From contig JAHWKM010000008.1 in assembly GCA_019347895.1 (NCBI GenBank), forward strand, positions 1 to 50,279: 50,279 nt of DNA. The letters run 5' to 3'. The stretch is from Candidatus Parcubacteria bacterium (lineage in GTDB: Bacteria > Patescibacteriota > Saccharimonadia > Saccharimonadales > 2-12-FULL-41-12). Made by a program: the position numbers and the translations under genes. The stretch's first letter is position 1; the number at the start of each line of letters is the position of its first letter. This document shows, piece by piece, positions 3,766-10,728 of the stretch. Under the pieces are notes generated by a model. It was not told the DNA's origin, made no database searches, and worked only from the letters and a program-made list of their open reading frames with translations.

Positions 3766-4869
3766 ATGGCTAAGAAAGCCGAATTACTAAAAGAAGCTAA
3801 GAAGCTCAAGCTTGATGTGAGTGAAAAAAATAAAATTGCCGAAATAGAAGCGGCTATAAAAAAATCCAAAGCCAAAGAAGAACCGGCCAGGCAAACTACC
3901 GATACGCCCTTTAATACCGATGAGAAAGTCGATATCACAAAAGCAGCCATTGATTCAGCCCAGCAAGAAGCAGATGTTATTGCGGAAAAACGCTCGCCTG
4001 ATATTGTATCTGACCAAGCTGACCGCACACAAACGCAACAGTTAGCTAAAGCCGGCAAACGCAGCGAAAAAGGTTTAAAAGAGACTGAAGCCAGACAGGA
4101 GAAAATAGAGCACCAAAAACACCGCGAAGAGACAACCGATGAAGCCGAATCTAAACCAAAGCAACCCATAAAGCCTCCGCGCAGCAGGATAGAACGCCGC
4201 GGCAAGAAATACCGGGAAGCAGCCAAAGCAATTGAAAGAAACAAACTATATAGCCTGCCGGAAGCCATCGACCTAGCAATAAAATCTGCGACAACTAAGT
4301 TTGACTCGACTATTGAATTACACGTTAGGCTAAACGTAGACCCCAAGCAAGCCGACCAAAACATAAGAGACAATGTAGTCTTGCCGGCCGGTACCGGTAA
4401 AACACTGAGGGTTGCGGTACTTGCCGAGGAAGACGATGCTAAAAAAGCGCTGAAAGCCGGAGCTGACAAAGCCGGCAACGAGGATCTGTTAGCCGAAATC
4501 GCCAAGGAACAGCTGGACTTTGACGTACTAATAGCCACACCTAACCTAATGGTTAAACTAGCTAAACACGCTAGAGTTCTAGGGCCTCGCGGCTTAATGC
4601 CAAATCCAAAAAGCGGCACGGTAACCGCTGACGTTACTAAGGCTGTAGAGCAGTCTAAGGCCGGCAAAATAGAATATAGAGTTGACAGCACCGGGATCAT
4701 ACATGCCGGAGCAGGCAAGGTCAGCTTTGGCGCCCAGAAACTTCAAACCAACCTGGAAGCTGTATTAGATAGCATCAAACAGAACAAGCCATCAAGTATC
4801 AAAGGCGCTTTTATAAACTCTGCCTATGTAACAACCACTATGGGCCCCTCCATCAAAATCCAAACATAA
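3766..4869 (+). CDS. rplA: 50S ribosomal protein L1 with long N-terminal extension
   Basis: L1 forms the mobile L1 stalk and commonly represses its own operon by binding mRNA. The L1 core starts near residue 140 (RGKKYREAAKAIER) and contains KFDSTIELHVRLNVDPKQ, GTGKT and LGPRGLMPNPKSGTV, ending at TTMGPSIKI. The protein is 367 residues against about 230 normally. The first 140 are charged and Lys/Glu/Ala-rich. The opening 35 residues (KKAELLKEAKKLKLDV...) resemble a short helix-extended-helix (SAP/Rho-N-like) nucleic-acid module, which is inference. AAAGGAG precedes the ATG. After the TAA the same frame stays open with a Pro/Lys/Glu tail (see findings). Confidence 0.95.
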   Translation: MAKKAELLKEAKKLKLDVSEKNKIAEIEAAIKKSKAKEEPARQTTDTPFNTDEKVDITKAAIDSAQQEADVIAEKRSPDIVSDQADRTQTQQLAKAGKRSEKGLKETEARQEKIEHQKHREETTDEAESKPKQPIKPPRSRIERRGKKYREAAKAIERNKLYSLPEAIDLAIKSATTKFDSTIELHVRLNVDPKQADQNIRDNVVLPAGTGKTLRVAVLAEEDDAKKALKAGADKAGNEDLLAEIAKEQLDFDVLIATPNLMVKLAKHARVLGPRGLMPNPKSGTVTADVTKAVEQSKAGKIEYRVDSTGIIHAGAGKVSFGAQKLQTNLEAVLDSIKQNKPSSIKGAFINSAYVTTTMGPSIKIQT

Positions 4870-5061: not shown

Positions 5062-5709
5062 TTATTTGACTTTGTAGTTGGCTTTGAGGTCGCGGATTTG
5101 GCCGTTTTGGATTAGCTTGTTTTCGATGCGTTTTTCTTTAGCTACGCTTTGCACGTCCACGCCTTCTATAATGTCTTTTTTGTGGTAGCGGCTGGGGCGG
5201 GCTTTGGTTTCGCCTGTCAGTTTTTCAAAAACAATCTGGCAAAAACGTTCCCCCGGATACAAGCGCACAGTTTGTGATAAGGTGTTATTTTTGATCGGTA
5301 TCACCAGCTGGCCCTCGTAGCCGCTGTCGACTATGCCGGTCAAATCTACTGAGATGCCTTTACGGTTAGTGCTGGATCGAGGGTACATTACAGCCATAAG
5401 ATCAGACGGTATTTTGATAGTTTCCAAAGAGGAAACAAGCACGTGTTCGTTAGCCAGCAGGTCAAAATACTGTCCTTGCTCCAGCTCTATAATGTCGAAA
5501 TATTCAGGGCGGTCTTTAGCGTAATAATCCATATGCAGCGCTTCGCGCCCGGCCTTGGTCATATGCCAGGATTTAGGTATCAAAAAAGTAAACCCCAGCC
5601 GCAAATCAACCGAGTGAGCCTGCAGCTGGAACTCGTCCAAAGCCGGATTGAAGCCAATCTCACCCTTATGCGTATATTCTAATATTTCTTCACGCGTTAA
5701 TATCGCCAT
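5062..5709 (-). CDS. dCTP deaminase/dUTPase family protein, probably a dUTPase
   Basis: A 215-residue member of the trimeric dUTPase/dCTP-deaminase fold, which supplies dUMP for thymidylate synthesis and keeps uracil out of DNA. Motifs seen are QAHSVDLRLG, MYPRSSTNRKGISV and TGIVDSGYEGQLVIPIKN. The VDSGYEGQL segment fits dUTPase motif III with its catalytic Asp. Where dCTP deaminases have the catalytic Glu (the LEFYN-type strand), this protein reads IPIKN. Simple dUTPase activity is therefore the better guess, although overall length and N-terminus are deaminase-like. The ATG overlaps the DHFR stop by one base; it is third in a thyA-DHFR-dut operon, an arrangement that fits dTMP supply. Confidence 0.85.
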   Translation of the reverse strand: MAILTREEILEYTHKGEIGFNPALDEFQLQAHSVDLRLGFTFLIPKSWHMTKAGREALHMDYYAKDRPEYFDIIELEQGQYFDLLANEHVLVSSLETIKIPSDLMAVMYPRSSTNRKGISVDLTGIVDSGYEGQLVIPIKNNTLSQTVRLYPGERFCQIVFEKLTGETKARPSRYHKKDIIEGVDVQSVAKEKRIENKLIQNGQIRDLKANYKVK

Positions 5710-6203
5710 TATTTAATTACCTTATAGTGGAGCAGTACAGTATTTTCGTTAAACTTGCTCACACCGTTTAATGTCAATTTTGTATTTACATCCTCTTGCA
5801 GGAGCTTAATCCCTTTTCCAAACATTAAAGGTTCAAGAGTCAAGTATATATCAGTTACTACTCCGGCTTTTAAAAACATGGTGTAGATTGAACTTCCTCC
5901 GGCAATCGCGACTTGGCTGGCACCTTCAATTTTTAGTCTCTGAACTAACTGAGCCGGGGACTCACGGGTAGTCTCTACTTCCGGTTGTTCAATATTTTGG
6001 TGGCTGTAAACTATATTCCGGCGGCCGGGCAAAGGTTCCTTAAACGTCCGGTAGGTATTGCCTCCCATTATTAGTACGCCCGATTTCTTGGTCATTTCCC
6101 GAAAAAACTTTTTATCCTCAGAACTTGTCCAGTCAATAAGCTCATTGGAATTTCTGGCGATAAAGCCGTCGGCGGTCATAGCGGCAATAATATAAACTTT
6201 CAT
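5709..6203 (-). CDS. dihydrofolate reductase family protein
   Basis: A 164-residue DHFR/RibD-C fold protein. The N-terminus KVYIIAAMTADGFIARN, the active-site region IDWTSSEDKKFF with an acidic residue (Asp30) where DHFRs have theirs, VLIMGGNTY and the dinucleotide-binding AIAGGSSIY are all visible. It reduces dihydrofolate to tetrahydrofolate, the step needed because ThyA oxidises its folate cofactor. The ATG overlaps the thyA stop by four bases and its stop overlaps the next gene by one, so all three are coupled. A RibD-like reductase role is the alternative, but the neighbours favour DHFR. Confidence 0.85.
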   Translation of the reverse strand: MKVYIIAAMTADGFIARNSNELIDWTSSEDKKFFREMTKKSGVLIMGGNTYRTFKEPLPGRRNIVYSHQNIEQPEVETTRESPAQLVQRLKIEGASQVAIAGGSSIYTMFLKAGVVTDIYLTLEPLMFGKGIKLLQEDVNTKLTLNGVSKFNENTVLLHYKVIK

Positions 6204-7033
6204 AAGATTATTTTCAGTCCTTTTATCGCCTCCTTGGGCCGGTATTGCTGGTTTATGTTATCAAATATCTCTACTACAAGCTTTGTATCTTTGGACTGCG
6301 CGCGCTGGTATGATTTTTCGGGTAAGACAACTTTGATTTTTTTAGCAGAGACCTTGCGTCTGATCATTTCTTCCGCCGCACTATAATGCGTGTCGTAAAT
6401 GTGAGCGTTGGCAATTGTATGACTGTAGATACCCGGTTTTACGCCAAGTTTCTGCGCCAAAATAACCTGCAAAAGGGCAAAGCCGGCTACGTCATGCGGA
6501 AATCCTAAGATCATATCATTGGAACGAACAACATTCATAAAATGAAGTCGACCGCATATAATATTTACCACAAAAGTATAAGGGCAGGGAACATTGCCTT
6601 TGCTGACACCTCCCAAGCCATCGCTGGCCGGATCCCAGGTAATGACCACGCCCTGTCTGGATGACGGATCTTTAGCCAGCAACTCAACCAATTTGCCTAG
6701 CTGGTCGCGCCCGAAATGCCGGCGCCAGCGGTAGCCGTAAGCCACCGTTACGACGTCGCCTGGGTTGGTAAAATCATCCCAAATTTTTGTAAAATTCCGC
6801 AAGAAAATCTCCGGTTTGCGGGCGCCCGATATGAACCATATTTGCTCGGCAATAAACAGTTTTAGCGGTATTTTGCGCAGCGTTAAAAGCGGAAAACCGT
6901 CTTTTTCTATGTCGATGGAAAAATTTAGCCCGAAAGAAGCCGCCGTTTCATGGCCGGTGCGCGCATTTACTTCACGTGTACCTTCATTTAAAATTTTGCC
7001 AAGCAAATCTTGGTAGATTAAGTCAAAACTCAT
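6200..7033 (-). CDS. thyA: thymidylate synthase ThyA
   Basis: ThyA methylates dUMP to dTMP using methylene-THF. The 277-residue protein shows SSRQGVVITWDP, the nucleophile loop NVPCPYTF with Cys150, VRSNDMILGFPHDVAGFALLQ (dUMP and folate contacts) and HIYDTHY near the C-terminus. Length is close to the E. coli enzyme. It heads a minus-strand operon with the DHFR and the dUTPase-like gene. It is divergent from the deaminase gene starting at about 7048, with only 14 bases between the start codons. A second, unrelated thymidylate synthase domain (ThyX type) is encoded 0.6 kb away, which is unusual. Confidence 0.96.
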   Translation of the reverse strand: MSFDLIYQDLLGKILNEGTREVNARTGHETAASFGLNFSIDIEKDGFPLLTLRKIPLKLFIAEQIWFISGARKPEIFLRNFTKIWDDFTNPGDVVTVAYGYRWRRHFGRDQLGKLVELLAKDPSSRQGVVITWDPASDGLGGVSKGNVPCPYTFVVNIICGRLHFMNVVRSNDMILGFPHDVAGFALLQVILAQKLGVKPGIYSHTIANAHIYDTHYSAAEEMIRRKVSAKKIKVVLPEKSYQRAQSKDTKLVVEIFDNINQQYRPKEAIKGLKIIL

Positions 7034-7047
7034 TACCTTGGAATTAT

Positions 7048-7584
7048 ATGCAAAACACCTTAAAATTACTACACATGTCTGACGAAAACGCTATTAATTA
7101 CCCATACCTGCCAGCTGGCGAGAAAATTATATATGTCCGCGCCGACAACGAATATATGCAAGCTGCCAGAGAGTTTGCATTAAAAAACTCACTAGATAAA
7201 GTCATGCCAACCGGCAGCGTGATAGTTTTAGACGGCAAAGTAATCGGCAGGGGCGCCAACGGCAGTGACTACCACGACAAACATGGCTGTGAGCGCGTAC
7301 GACGCAATATACCGACAGGGCAAGGTTATGAACTATGCGTTGGCTGTCATCCAAAAAACCACAGCGAACCCAAAGCCATCGCTGAAGCATTAAAGAATTA
7401 CACTAAGGAAGATTTAGCAAAATCCGAGCTGTATCTATGGGGACACTGGTGGCTCTGCCAGCCTTGCTGGAATGCTATAACAGAAGCCGGAATAAAAAAG
7501 GTTTACCTTCAAACCGATAGCGAAAAGCACTTCAATAAGAACCACATAGAAAACATCGTCGGCACTCAATTCAACCTCGCCTAA
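7048..7584 (+). CDS. deoxycytidylate/cytidine deaminase-family protein
   Basis: A 178-residue zinc-dependent nucleotide deaminase relative. The zinc site is visible as HSE (His105, Glu107 as proton shuttle) and, later, CQPC (Cys137, Cys140) followed by ITEAGIKKVYL. The family usually shows H-A-E and P-C-x-x-C. An extra cysteine cluster (Cys81, Cys97, Cys100) sits just before the HSE motif and may bind a second metal. Conversion of dCMP to dUMP would feed ThyA/ThyX. I use the ATG at 7048; the ATG at 7075 (MSDEN) is equally possible, as neither has a clear ribosome site. Confidence 0.8.
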   Translation: MQNTLKLLHMSDENAINYPYLPAGEKIIYVRADNEYMQAAREFALKNSLDKVMPTGSVIVLDGKVIGRGANGSDYHDKHGCERVRRNIPTGQGYELCVGCHPKNHSEPKAIAEALKNYTKEDLAKSELYLWGHWWLCQPCWNAITEAGIKKVYLQTDSEKHFNKNHIENIVGTQFNLA

Positions 7585-7671: not shown

Positions 7672-9978
7672 ATGGATAAAGGAGTTTTTATAGCGCTGGA
7701 AGGAACTGACGGTTCCGGTAAAACCACCCAGTTCAAGCTGCTTAAAGAAAAGCTTGAAAAACAAGGTTACGACGTAGAAGTTTTTGATTTTCCGCAATAT
7801 GACAAACCCTCGAGCTTCTTCGTACGCGAATATTTAAACGGGAAATATGGTTCTTTGGATGAGGTGGGGCCCTACACGGCATCACTATTTTTCGCGTTAG
7901 ACCGATATGAAGCGGCTCCGAAGATAAAGCAGGCTTTAAGCGAAGGGAAAGTGATTTTAACCAACCGTTTTACCGGCTCCAACATGGCGCATCAAGGCGC
8001 AAGTTTTGACAGCTTGGAGCAGCTGCGCGGCTTTTTTCTATGGTTGGATCAGATAGAGTTTGAATTGTTTAAAATTCCCCGTCCGGACATTTCAATCGTG
8101 CTTCGGGTGCCGGCTGAAATTGCCCAAAAAATGGTAGATCAGAAAAAATCGCGAGAATATACCGAGAAAAAACGTGATTTGCATGAAGCAGACCTAAACC
8201 ATCTGAAACGCTCTGTGCAAGTTTATGATACGCTTTGCCAGTTATTTCCAAAGGATTTCAAACTGATTGACTGTGCCCGCGAAGGAAAGGTACTAGAAGT
8301 AGGAAAGGTGGAAAGCATGGTTTGGGAGACAGTCAAAGCATTTTTACCCGTTTCAGGGAATTTAAAAAAAAAGATAAGTCAAACAGCTAAATCAGAAAAT
8401 CCATATTTGTCAAAAACGGACGGTAATCTAGAAATTACCGAGGAAGGCAAGAAATATCTTGAGAAATACATTACTAACCTAAATAGCAATGTATACTCTT
8501 TTAATAACGAGTTATCGCCTCAAACTATCGCCGCTGCCATGGCTCGGCTCAGCCGCCGCTCAGACAGTTTGAAAATTACGCTGCTAGATGAGTTCGCGGA
8601 CAGTCAGCACAAGGATGAAAAATTAATCCAAAGGGTTTTAACAGCTTACGGGGACGACTCCGTGCAGCAGCTTTTAGGCCAGCATTTAGTACTTGAAGGC
8701 ATCAGTAATTTAATGACTAAGAAGGTGGAGCGCAGCCGCTTGGCGGCTTATCTGGAACAATCCACACGCTACATTTACTTTGATAAAAAAGATGCCAGCG
8801 GTAATTATCCCTTTTATATCCCGGCCAATTTTTCAAACCAGACAACTAAATATTACGTAGAGGCTATGAATAAACTGTTCGATAATTACAGCCGGATCGT
8901 CCATGGTTTGACGGACTATATCCGCAAGCATTCAGAGGTTGGAGAGCCTGAAAAGGACAGCGCTTGGCTTGCCGCCACCAAGGCGCAGGCTTGCGATGCA
9001 GCTCGCCACGCCTTGCCGGTCGCTTTAAAATCTACTCTCGGCATTTTTGCTTCGGCGCAAACAATAGAAGGTCTTATCATCCGGCTTTTAAGCGATAATT
9101 TGGCCGAAAGCCGGGATATAGGCCGGAAAATTTTAGATGAAGCCAGAAAGGTCTATCCGGCATTTTATGAAAAAGCCGATATGCAAAACCGAGGGTTGCA
9201 AAATATAGCCTACAAAGCTTCTACCAAAAATAAATCAGCCCTGCTAGCCGATAAATACTTAAGCCGCCGATACGGAGCTGGCGACCAGCTGGTAGAGTTA
9301 ACGGATTTCTGGCCCAAAAACGAGCTGGATATCGTAGCTGATATTTTGTATGAAAACAGTTCGTTGTCTCTTTTTGAGATCAGGCAAAATATCGAAAGAT
9401 GGACTCTGGATAAACGCAGGGGAGTAATAGAAACTTACATCGGCGAGCGCACCAATCGCCGCCATAAGCCAGGACGGGCATTTGAAAAAATCCACTATAG
9501 TTTTGATTTGCTTACCGATTACGGGGTTTTCCGGGATTTGCAGCGCCACCGCATAGTTGATGATTTGGAGTGGCAGAAATTATCGCCGCGTTATGGATTT
9601 GGCATTCCTAAAATAATTGAAGAAGCGGGATACTCTGAAATTTTTGAAAGCAGTTTTGATCTAAGTTTAAAATTGTATTCTAGACTGCAAGAAGATGGTC
9701 TTGATCAAGAAGCCCAATACGCCACGCTTCTTGGCCACAAAGTCCGCTGGAAGTTGACTATTAATGCCCGCGAGGCTTTTCATTTGCTGGAGCTGCGAAC
9801 CGGCCCCCAGGGACACCCCGGCTACCGCAAATTATGCCAGCAAATGTACGCTAAAATTGCCGAAACCCACCCCTTAATTGCCGAATCGATGAACTTTGTT
9901 AACAATAGCACCGACGAGCAGCTTACCAGGTTAAATTCAGAACTAAAATCAAATAAAAAGCTGCGGCAGATCAAATAA
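7672..9978 (+). CDS. thymidylate kinase fused to tandem ThyX-like domains
   Basis: A 768-residue multidomain protein. Residues 1-225 are thymidylate kinase (P-loop GTDGSGKTT at 11-19, LTNRFTGSN, a lid region with several basic residues), which makes dTDP from dTMP. After a short linker come two ThyX-like halves. The first carries RSRLAAYLEQSTRY at 354-367, aligned to the flavin-dependent synthase signature RHRxxSxNxxSxRY but without its His, first Ser and Asn. The second carries RHRIVDDLEWQKLSPRY at 625-641, with a three-residue insertion. Each half is followed by the expected helical region (LPVALKSTLG; HLLELRTGPQGHPGYR). The ATG at 7672 begins the P-loop strand directly; a GTG at 7666 is less likely. 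Kinase activity is likely, synthase activity uncertain. Confidence 0.9.
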   Translation: MDKGVFIALEGTDGSGKTTQFKLLKEKLEKQGYDVEVFDFPQYDKPSSFFVREYLNGKYGSLDEVGPYTASLFFALDRYEAAPKIKQALSEGKVILTNRFTGSNMAHQGASFDSLEQLRGFFLWLDQIEFELFKIPRPDISIVLRVPAEIAQKMVDQKKSREYTEKKRDLHEADLNHLKRSVQVYDTLCQLFPKDFKLIDCAREGKVLEVGKVESMVWETVKAFLPVSGNLKKKISQTAKSENPYLSKTDGNLEITEEGKKYLEKYITNLNSNVYSFNNELSPQTIAAAMARLSRRSDSLKITLLDEFADSQHKDEKLIQRVLTAYGDDSVQQLLGQHLVLEGISNLMTKKVERSRLAAYLEQSTRYIYFDKKDASGNYPFYIPANFSNQTTKYYVEAMNKLFDNYSRIVHGLTDYIRKHSEVGEPEKDSAWLAATKAQACDAARHALPVALKSTLGIFASAQTIEGLIIRLLSDNLAESRDIGRKILDEARKVYPAFYEKADMQNRGLQNIAYKASTKNKSALLADKYLSRRYGAGDQLVELTDFWPKNELDIVADILYENSSLSLFEIRQNIERWTLDKRRGVIETYIGERTNRRHKPGRAFEKIHYSFDLLTDYGVFRDLQRHRIVDDLEWQKLSPRYGFGIPKIIEEAGYSEIFESSFDLSLKLYSRLQEDGLDQEAQYATLLGHKVRWKLTINAREAFHLLELRTGPQGHPGYRKLCQQMYAKIAETHPLIAESMNFVNNSTDEQLTRLNSELKSNKKLRQIK

Positions 9979-10206: not shown

Positions 10207-10728
10207 ATGGCCTTAAGCAAACAAGCAAAAGAACAGATATTGAGCGAAGTTTCAGAGCTTCTTGATAAATCAAAGCTGACAGTCGTGGCAAATTACAAAG
10301 GCACGACAGTAAAAAACTTGCAAGACCTGCGCAAACAGGCAGGAGAAAGCGGAACCAAGGTAAGAGTAGTTAAGAATACTTTGGTTATCAAAGCCCTGGA
10401 GGCCAATGACAGGCTGAAAAACGCGGACACAAGCCAGCTGAGTGAACAGCTTTTATATGCATTCAATAGCGAGGATGAAGTAGCGCCGGCCCAAGTGCTG
10501 GCTAAATTCTCCAAAAAAGCTAAAAAATTACGGTTTATCGGCGCTATTACAGACGAGGGAGTTTTTATGGCTCCTGATGACGTGAAAGCCCTGGCTGAGC
10601 TTCCAAGCAAGCCGCAGCTGATTGCCAGCGTTGTCGCGACGCTTAATTCGCCGGTTAACGATGTTTTAGGAGGCCTTTCTAGCGGTATCAACGGCATATT
10701 GTCAGGCTTAGAGGCTCGAGCAGCTTAA
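10207..10728 (+). CDS. rplJ: 50S ribosomal protein L10
   Basis: L10 anchors the L7/L12 dimers of the ribosomal stalk and binds its own mRNA leader. The 173-residue protein shows the canonical N-terminus (KEQILSEVSELLDKSKLTVV with YKGTTVKNLQDLRKQ), VRVVKNTL and a C-terminal helix region that holds L12 (VNDVLGGLSSGINGILSGLE). Length is standard. AGAAGGAAG sits 10-15 bases before the ATG. The gene is preceded by a well-formed L10 leader and followed, after a 121-base repeat-rich gap, by rplL. Confidence 0.97.
   Translation: MALSKQAKEQILSEVSELLDKSKLTVVANYKGTTVKNLQDLRKQAGESGTKVRVVKNTLVIKALEANDRLKNADTSQLSEQLLYAFNSEDEVAPAQVLAKFSKKAKKLRFIGAITDEGVFMAPDDVKALAELPSKPQLIASVVATLNSPVNDVLGGLSSGINGILSGLEARAA

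Follow-up and report, generated by a model that had tools for sequence, protein, structure and literature searches.

Thymidylate kinase fused to a tandem ThyX with a divided active site, beside a predicted dCMP-type ThyA, in a patescibacterial genome

The flavin-dependent thymidylate synthase ThyX is a homotetramer with active sites shared between subunits (PMC6514825, PMC3498832): in the Mycobacterium tuberculosis (Mtb) enzyme, subunit A contributes the RHR motif and Arg199, subunit B Ser71 and Arg190, and subunit C Ser105, Arg107 and Tyr108 (PMC6514825). A duplicated ThyX has been reported as the sole synthase of most Chloroflexi (PMC3224940). In the ThyA family, position 177 sets the substrate, Asn specifying dUMP and Asp dCMP, so that a changed residue switches the enzyme (PMC8670742); the second residue to vary with cytosine modification is that at position 147 (PMC8670742, PMC5175136), and both MilA and the dCMP hydroxymethylase of phage T4 carry Asp at 177 (PMC5175136). 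Finally, in the DNA of phage Xp12 cytosine is replaced by 5-methylcytosine (PMC9206674, PMC11946847); this phage is reported to convert 5-methyl-dCTP to dTTP by deamination, and 5-methyl-dCMP is a substrate of human dCMP deaminase (PMC12088426).

The window, i.e. the entire 50,279-nucleotide stretch of patescibacterial DNA analysed here, contains a single uninterrupted reading frame which, as the original prediction had recognized, joins a thymidylate kinase (Tmk) to two ThyX-like halves. An alternative start at GTG 7666 would extend the product to 770 residues. The frame and its neighbours lie between rplA and rplJ, the usual location of thymidylate genes in this class:

3766–4869, plus strand: rplA (L1), left border of the usual thymidylate-gene site
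5062–5709, minus strand: Dcd/dUTPase-like protein, with Pro at the catalytic Glu of dCTP deaminase
5709–6203, minus strand: dihydrofolate reductase-like gene (PF00186 and RibD_C)
6200–7033, minus strand: D-type thyA homologue (Asp177, Pro147), a predicted dCMP methylase by residue comparison
7075–7584, plus strand: zinc deaminase of the dCMP-deaminase superfamily, HSE and CxPC motifs retained
7672–9978, plus strand: Tmk-ThyX-ThyX fusion, 768 residues from ATG 7672
7672–8349, plus strand: thymidylate kinase domain, residues 1–226
8407–9231, plus strand: ThyX half 1, residues 246–520 (profile, model, Foldseek to Thermotoga maritima ThyX)
8731–8772, plus strand: half-1 motif RSRLAAYLEQSTRY, Glu86, Ser88, Arg90 and Tyr91 retained (T. 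maritima numbering), His79 gone
8995–9018, plus strand: half-1 DAARHALP, Arg147 equivalent retained
9232–9975, plus strand: ThyX half 2, residues 521–768 (profile, model)
9541–9594, plus strand: half-2 motif QRHRIVDDLEWQKLSPRY, with Arg78-His79-Arg80, the FAD-binding RHR, retained
9763–9798, plus strand: half-2 NAREAFHLLELR, equivalents of Asn163, Arg165 and Arg174 retained
10207–10728, plus strand: rplJ (L10), right border of the usual site

We conclude with good confidence that the fusion is a bifunctional dTMP synthase–dTMP kinase, that its tandem ThyX is a pseudo-dimer with a split active site, two chains of which would together hold two complete sites and two dead ones, and that the adjoining D-type ThyA is a different enzyme. 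The Tmk domain matches Pfam family PF02223 (Thymidylate_kin; E 3.8e-23, residues 9–203), carries the P-loop GTDGSGKTT (residues 11–19, positions 7702–7728) and finds its closest solved structures in the mycobacterial (M. tuberculosis) type of Tmk. The remainder matches PF02511 (Thy1/ThyX) in two stretches above the cut-off (E 7.1e-41). Sequence searches of the PDB with each half returned weak ThyX matches only; a predicted monomeric model of the tandem part (mean pLDDT 86.8, pTM 0.82), however, has solved ThyX structures as its top Foldseek matches (TM about 0.7 when normalised by T. maritima ThyX), and the ThyX of phage Ma-LMM01 matches the tandem part along nearly its full length.

In a sample of 195 genomes of the class, many families of the order have the same architecture, at 44–60% identity, and other families possess a kinase-less tandem ThyX; relatives of the fusion that bear names are Candidatus Saccharibacteria. 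Since it recurs in many genomes, the fusion is not an assembly artefact, and with the frame intact a pseudogene is ruled out as well. One relative, G144, does show two stop codons in the half-1 region of its fusion (L005:1498-3807), where either an assembly error or a pseudogene is possible. Promoter and terminator scans of the locus yielded sites no more numerous than in shuffled sequence, and a search of the open-access literature found no direct report on ThyX-Tmk fusions or on ThyX or ThyA in Saccharibacteria.

The thyA-like/DHFR/Dcd-like operon, on the minus strand, starts 639 bp upstream of the fusion; the distance of about 0.6 kb given in the original prediction is thus right, but its description of the ThyA as normal is not. 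Compared with Escherichia coli ThyA, the window protein retains the catalytic Cys146 as well as Glu58, Arg21, Arg126, Arg166, His207 and Tyr209, and exhibits four replacements: Asn177 to Asp, His147 to Pro, Arg127 to Gln and Gln165 to Val. The dUMP-recognizing Asn177 is likewise Asp in all 15 homologues, with which the window protein forms a family of its own. Asp177 combined with an altered residue 147 is the pattern of dCMP methylases and hydroxymethylases, and the window ThyA is predicted to be a dCMP methylase rather than an ordinary dUMP enzyme; with Trp80 retained in D-type ThyA and roughly half of the loci having a linked DHFR gene, a methyl rather than a hydroxymethyl product is favoured.

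Asp177 is shared with the Xp12 dCMP methyltransferase and its relatives, T4 dCMP hydroxymethylase and MilA. The nearest phage relatives of the window ThyA belong to the Bradleyvirinae and include a phage of the Xp12 genus; they have the NVPCP motif and Asp177 in common with it, are likewise devoid of His147, and have a deaminase gene adjoining the thyA-like gene, as at the window locus. Nevertheless, D-type ThyA is encoded in cellular genomes, is 35% identical to its counterpart in DoCa10 (a member of the Xp12 genus, which was used for the Xp12-type comparison), and has a partner deaminase from a different branch than that of the phages.

Within the phylum, D-type ThyA was found in 16 genomes, the window's included, which are 84–100% complete (homologue loci: L083:9327-10229 and L141–L154); Asp177 is present in 16/16 and His147 is replaced. 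Neither ThyX nor a second full ThyA was found in the other 15, and D-type ThyA is thus the sole ThyA/ThyX-family enzyme found in 15/16. Homologues of the window deaminase, which has the HxE and CxxC zinc motifs and the deaminase fold, occur in 15/16; the deaminase is present in 13 of 15 D-type genomes versus 1 of 365 other sampled genomes of the phylum (Fisher p 3e-21). Its model belongs to the cytidine-deaminase superfamily, and the fold search pointed to no single subfamily, dCMP deaminase not being singled out. In each of the 13 cassettes in which a Dcd-like gene was found, the catalytic Glu of dCTP deaminase (E. coli Dcd Glu138) is replaced by Pro, whereas Dcd adjoining ThyX keeps it; the Dcd-like protein is predicted to be a nucleotide pyrophosphatase rather than a deaminase. 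One genome, G135, has the complete cassette at the rplA–rplJ site but lacks ThyX, and its Tmk is unfused. In L144 (G204:C51), another ThyA match, below the threshold (E 0.005), was noted at a distance of 0.7 kb from the D-type gene.

The simplest reading of the cassette, suggested by its gene content and residues, is a dUMP-bypassing route from dCTP via dCMP and 5-methyl-dCMP to dTMP. The Dcd-like pyrophosphatase would produce dCMP, D-type ThyA would convert it to 5-methyl-dCMP, and the linked zinc deaminase would convert the latter to dTMP, which Tmk would then phosphorylate. Xp12-infected Xanthomonas is similarly reported to obtain dTTP via deamination of a 5-methylated deoxycytidine nucleotide. 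Thymidylate synthesis in such infected cells was reportedly the subject of work by Kuo et al. in 1982, and a 5-methyl-dCTP deaminase that of Wang and Ehrlich, also in 1982. The Xp12 route is, however, a phage function operating at the triphosphate level, whereas the cassette is chromosomal, stands in for both the Asn177 form of ThyA and ThyX in 15 genomes, and would carry out its deamination step on 5-methyl-dCMP. We consider it an evenly balanced proposition that some Patescibacteria, including the window's lineage, possess a chromosomal dUMP-free thymidylate route, that this is the sole de novo route in at least 15 genomes, and that, of the genomes checked, the window's is the only one to add a kinase-fused, split-site ThyX. 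No direct report of cellular dTMP synthesis via 5-methyl-dCMP was found in the open-access literature. If confirmed, the cassette would be the cellular counterpart of a pathway described for a single phage group, and in some Patescibacteria the annotation 'thymidylate synthase' would conceal a different chemistry. The D-type ThyA beside the fusion may be a more important finding than the fusion itself.

Two other readings of the cassette have to be weighed. D-type ThyA might be the main dUMP methylase in spite of Asp177, with the zinc deaminase supplying dUMP and ThyX, where present, serving as a back-up. In the 15 genomes (of 16) where it has no other ThyA/ThyX-family enzyme beside it, D-type ThyA must indeed lead to dTMP, unless thymidine is salvaged. 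This reading is nevertheless unlikely in view of (i) the invariance of Asp177 and the replacement of His147, (ii) the near confinement of the deaminase to D-type genomes, and (iii) the loss of the Dcd-like catalytic Glu from the cassettes alone. Alternatively, D-type genomes might make 5-methyl-dCMP for DNA modification and take up thymidine from their hosts, as could be supposed from the phage relatives, which belong to the group of Xp12 with its 5-methylcytosine-containing DNA (PMC9206674, PMC11946847). A thymidine kinase, sought in all 16 D-type genomes, was found in only two, however (G291 and, weakly, G514), and the linkage of dcd-like, deaminase and tmk genes is indicative of a role in precursor supply, which makes such a use of 5-methyl-dCMP rather doubtful.

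The division of labour between the two ThyX halves becomes apparent when both are aligned to T. maritima ThyX, the numbering of which is used below. Window half 1 retains Tyr84, Glu86, Ser88, Arg90, Tyr91 and Arg147 and is devoid of Asn163 and Arg165; Arg78 and His79 are nearly always gone too, position 78 being Trp in most relatives. Conversely, window half 2 retains Arg78-His79-Arg80, Asn163, Arg165 and Arg174, and lacks Arg147 and the normal E-x-S-x-R register. The signature RHR(x7)S-x-R-Y is thus found within neither domain and is provided by the halves only jointly, RHR being whole in half 2 only and E-x-S-x-R-Y in normal register in half 1 only. Among 130 tandem ThyX sequences (98 from Saccharibacteria and 32 from other phyla), the retained residues are invariant or nearly so: Glu86, Ser88, Arg90, Tyr91 and Arg147 of half 1, where position 165 is Gln, and Arg78, Asn163, Arg165 and Arg174 of half 2 are each present in 130/130 (the half-1 Arg174 column is gap-sensitive). 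The tandem ThyX of phages Ma-LMM01 and Tunturi_5 show the core of this partition, with E/S/R/Y and Arg147 in half 1 and RHR and Arg174 in half 2. The original prediction had correctly placed the split signatures, RSRLAAYLEQSTRY at residue 354 and RHRIVDDLEWQKLSPRY at residue 625, yet calling them degenerate is misleading, as the halves hold different parts of the site, both strictly conserved; judged from their residues, the two signatures complement each other within a single active site.

Evidence for function comes from the class survey of 195 genomes, with tandem-ThyX lists compiled by hand, in which full-length ThyA occurs in 3 of 53 tandem-ThyX genomes versus 109 of 142 others (Fisher p 1.5e-20). 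At the sequence level, the tandem ThyX is hence usually the sole ThyA/ThyX-family enzyme of its genome, and it is very probably a working synthase. Within the window's own family, G109 has the fusion and lacks ThyA; in two genomes, G157 and G106, an intact fusion stands alongside another ThyA, that of G157 having Asn177.

The original prediction had instead proposed that the adjoining ThyA makes the synthase activity redundant and that the ThyX part may have been re-purposed, for instance to channel or regulate dTMP. On such a view it would regulate or scaffold the kinase, no dTMP being made. The window ThyX is indeed the fastest-evolving intact fusion compared: its end branch in the ThyX tree measures 1.06 against a median of 0.3 among relatives, and 9 of 136 conserved columns are altered, none of them catalytic, which may indicate early relaxation. 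Moreover, six genomes of the class (G119, G071, G075, G125, G132 and G172) contain a Tmk-fused ThyX with nearly all catalytic motifs gone, and all six have another synthase; decay is thus seen where a second synthase is present, and re-purposing or decay seems to have occurred in these six. For the window, however, re-purposing is improbable and finds no support: the two halves jointly supply all catalytic positions of the split site, 50 of the 53 tandem-ThyX genomes lack full-length ThyA, and the neighbouring ThyA does not make ThyX redundant, its predicted substrate being dCMP. At the sequence level, both findings that the original prediction would have taken as refutation, an intact site with its catalytic residues supplied elsewhere and close relatives without thyA, were obtained. 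The motif-less Tmk-fused ThyX themselves (L043:9164-11080, L087:7600-9234, L088:7800-9809, L089:6438-8504, L052:6351-8642 and L086:10935-12566) are candidate re-purposed or decaying domains.

For the intact, split-site ThyX, the Mtb residues can be assigned to their T. maritima equivalents (Arg199 to Arg174; Arg190 to Arg165; Ser105, Arg107 and Tyr108 to Ser88, Arg90 and Tyr91). If half 2 takes the places of subunits A and B, and half 1 that of subunit C, a pseudo-tetramer of two chains would therefore have two complete sites, the other two being without these residues. Half 2 would provide the FAD-holding residues (RHR, Asn163, Arg165) and Arg174, half 1 would provide the dUMP loop (Glu86, Ser88, Arg90 and the lid Tyr91) and Arg147, and the dTMP formed would be phosphorylated by the fused Tmk; the oligomer, its catalysis and any channelling are what we infer from this partition. 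The B role does not fall cleanly to half 2: the position of Mtb Ser71 (T. maritima Thr55) holds Ser in half 1 but Arg in half 2, unless the latter Arg substitutes for the serine, and the equivalent of T. maritima His53 is missing from both halves. Overall, the way in which the conserved residues divide matches what each subunit has to contribute in the ThyX tetramer, in line with the pseudo-symmetric enzyme arising by internal duplication that had been anticipated. That each half is an ordinary ThyX, yielding four complete active sites, is rejected as highly improbable although both halves match PF02511 and window half 2 still reads S-P-R-Y, because half 1 is without Arg165, Asn163 and usually Arg78, and half 2 without the Glu86/Ser88 register, Arg147 and, in several lineages, Arg90.

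The fusion thus shares with the homotetrameric ThyX of T. maritima (TM0449) and M. tuberculosis the fold, the FAD and dUMP motifs and subunit-composite active sites, and differs in having two unequal copies per chain, a divided site and an attached thymidylate kinase. A tandem ThyX with the same residue split is present in Acidimicrobiia, Acidobacteria, Rokubacteria and phage Ma-LMM01; the ThyX of Chloroflexi (PMC3224940) resembles that of the fusion in being duplicated. The tandem ThyX of these systems comprises about 490–540 residues and, in contrast to the fusion, the tandem ThyX sampled outside Saccharibacteria have no kinase domain. Among the best 80 loci of a genome-contig scan, those with a fused kinase are from Saccharibacteria or bacteria grouping with them, and those of Actinomycetota, Acidobacteria and others are unfused. 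Either of two Tmk types is attached to closely similar tandem ThyX; seven changes among the labels type A, type B and unfused are needed on the ThyX tree, many branches of which are weak, and the kinase was therefore probably swapped or gained more than once. That Tmk has become fused, in two different types, to such similar tandem ThyX is suggestive of selection for linking dTMP production to its phosphorylation.

Thymidylate synthesis is indispensable, and drugs are directed against its enzymes. The split-site tandem ThyX offers an example from nature of duplicated domains that have degenerated in complementary ways, and the three-subunit model of the ThyX active site becomes directly testable, since the halves can be mutated separately.

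Two minor observations were made on ThyA-like proteins. At L084:6727-7539, L086:6680-7639 and L110, ThyA has Lys126 and Ala/Gly127 in place of two phosphate-binding arginines, and two of these three adjoin a Tmk-fused ThyX. In addition, L085:2400-3026, L090:6556-7188 and L091:5866-6528 encode proteins of ∼210 residues with weak similarity to ThyA, in which the PC motif and Asn177 are retained.
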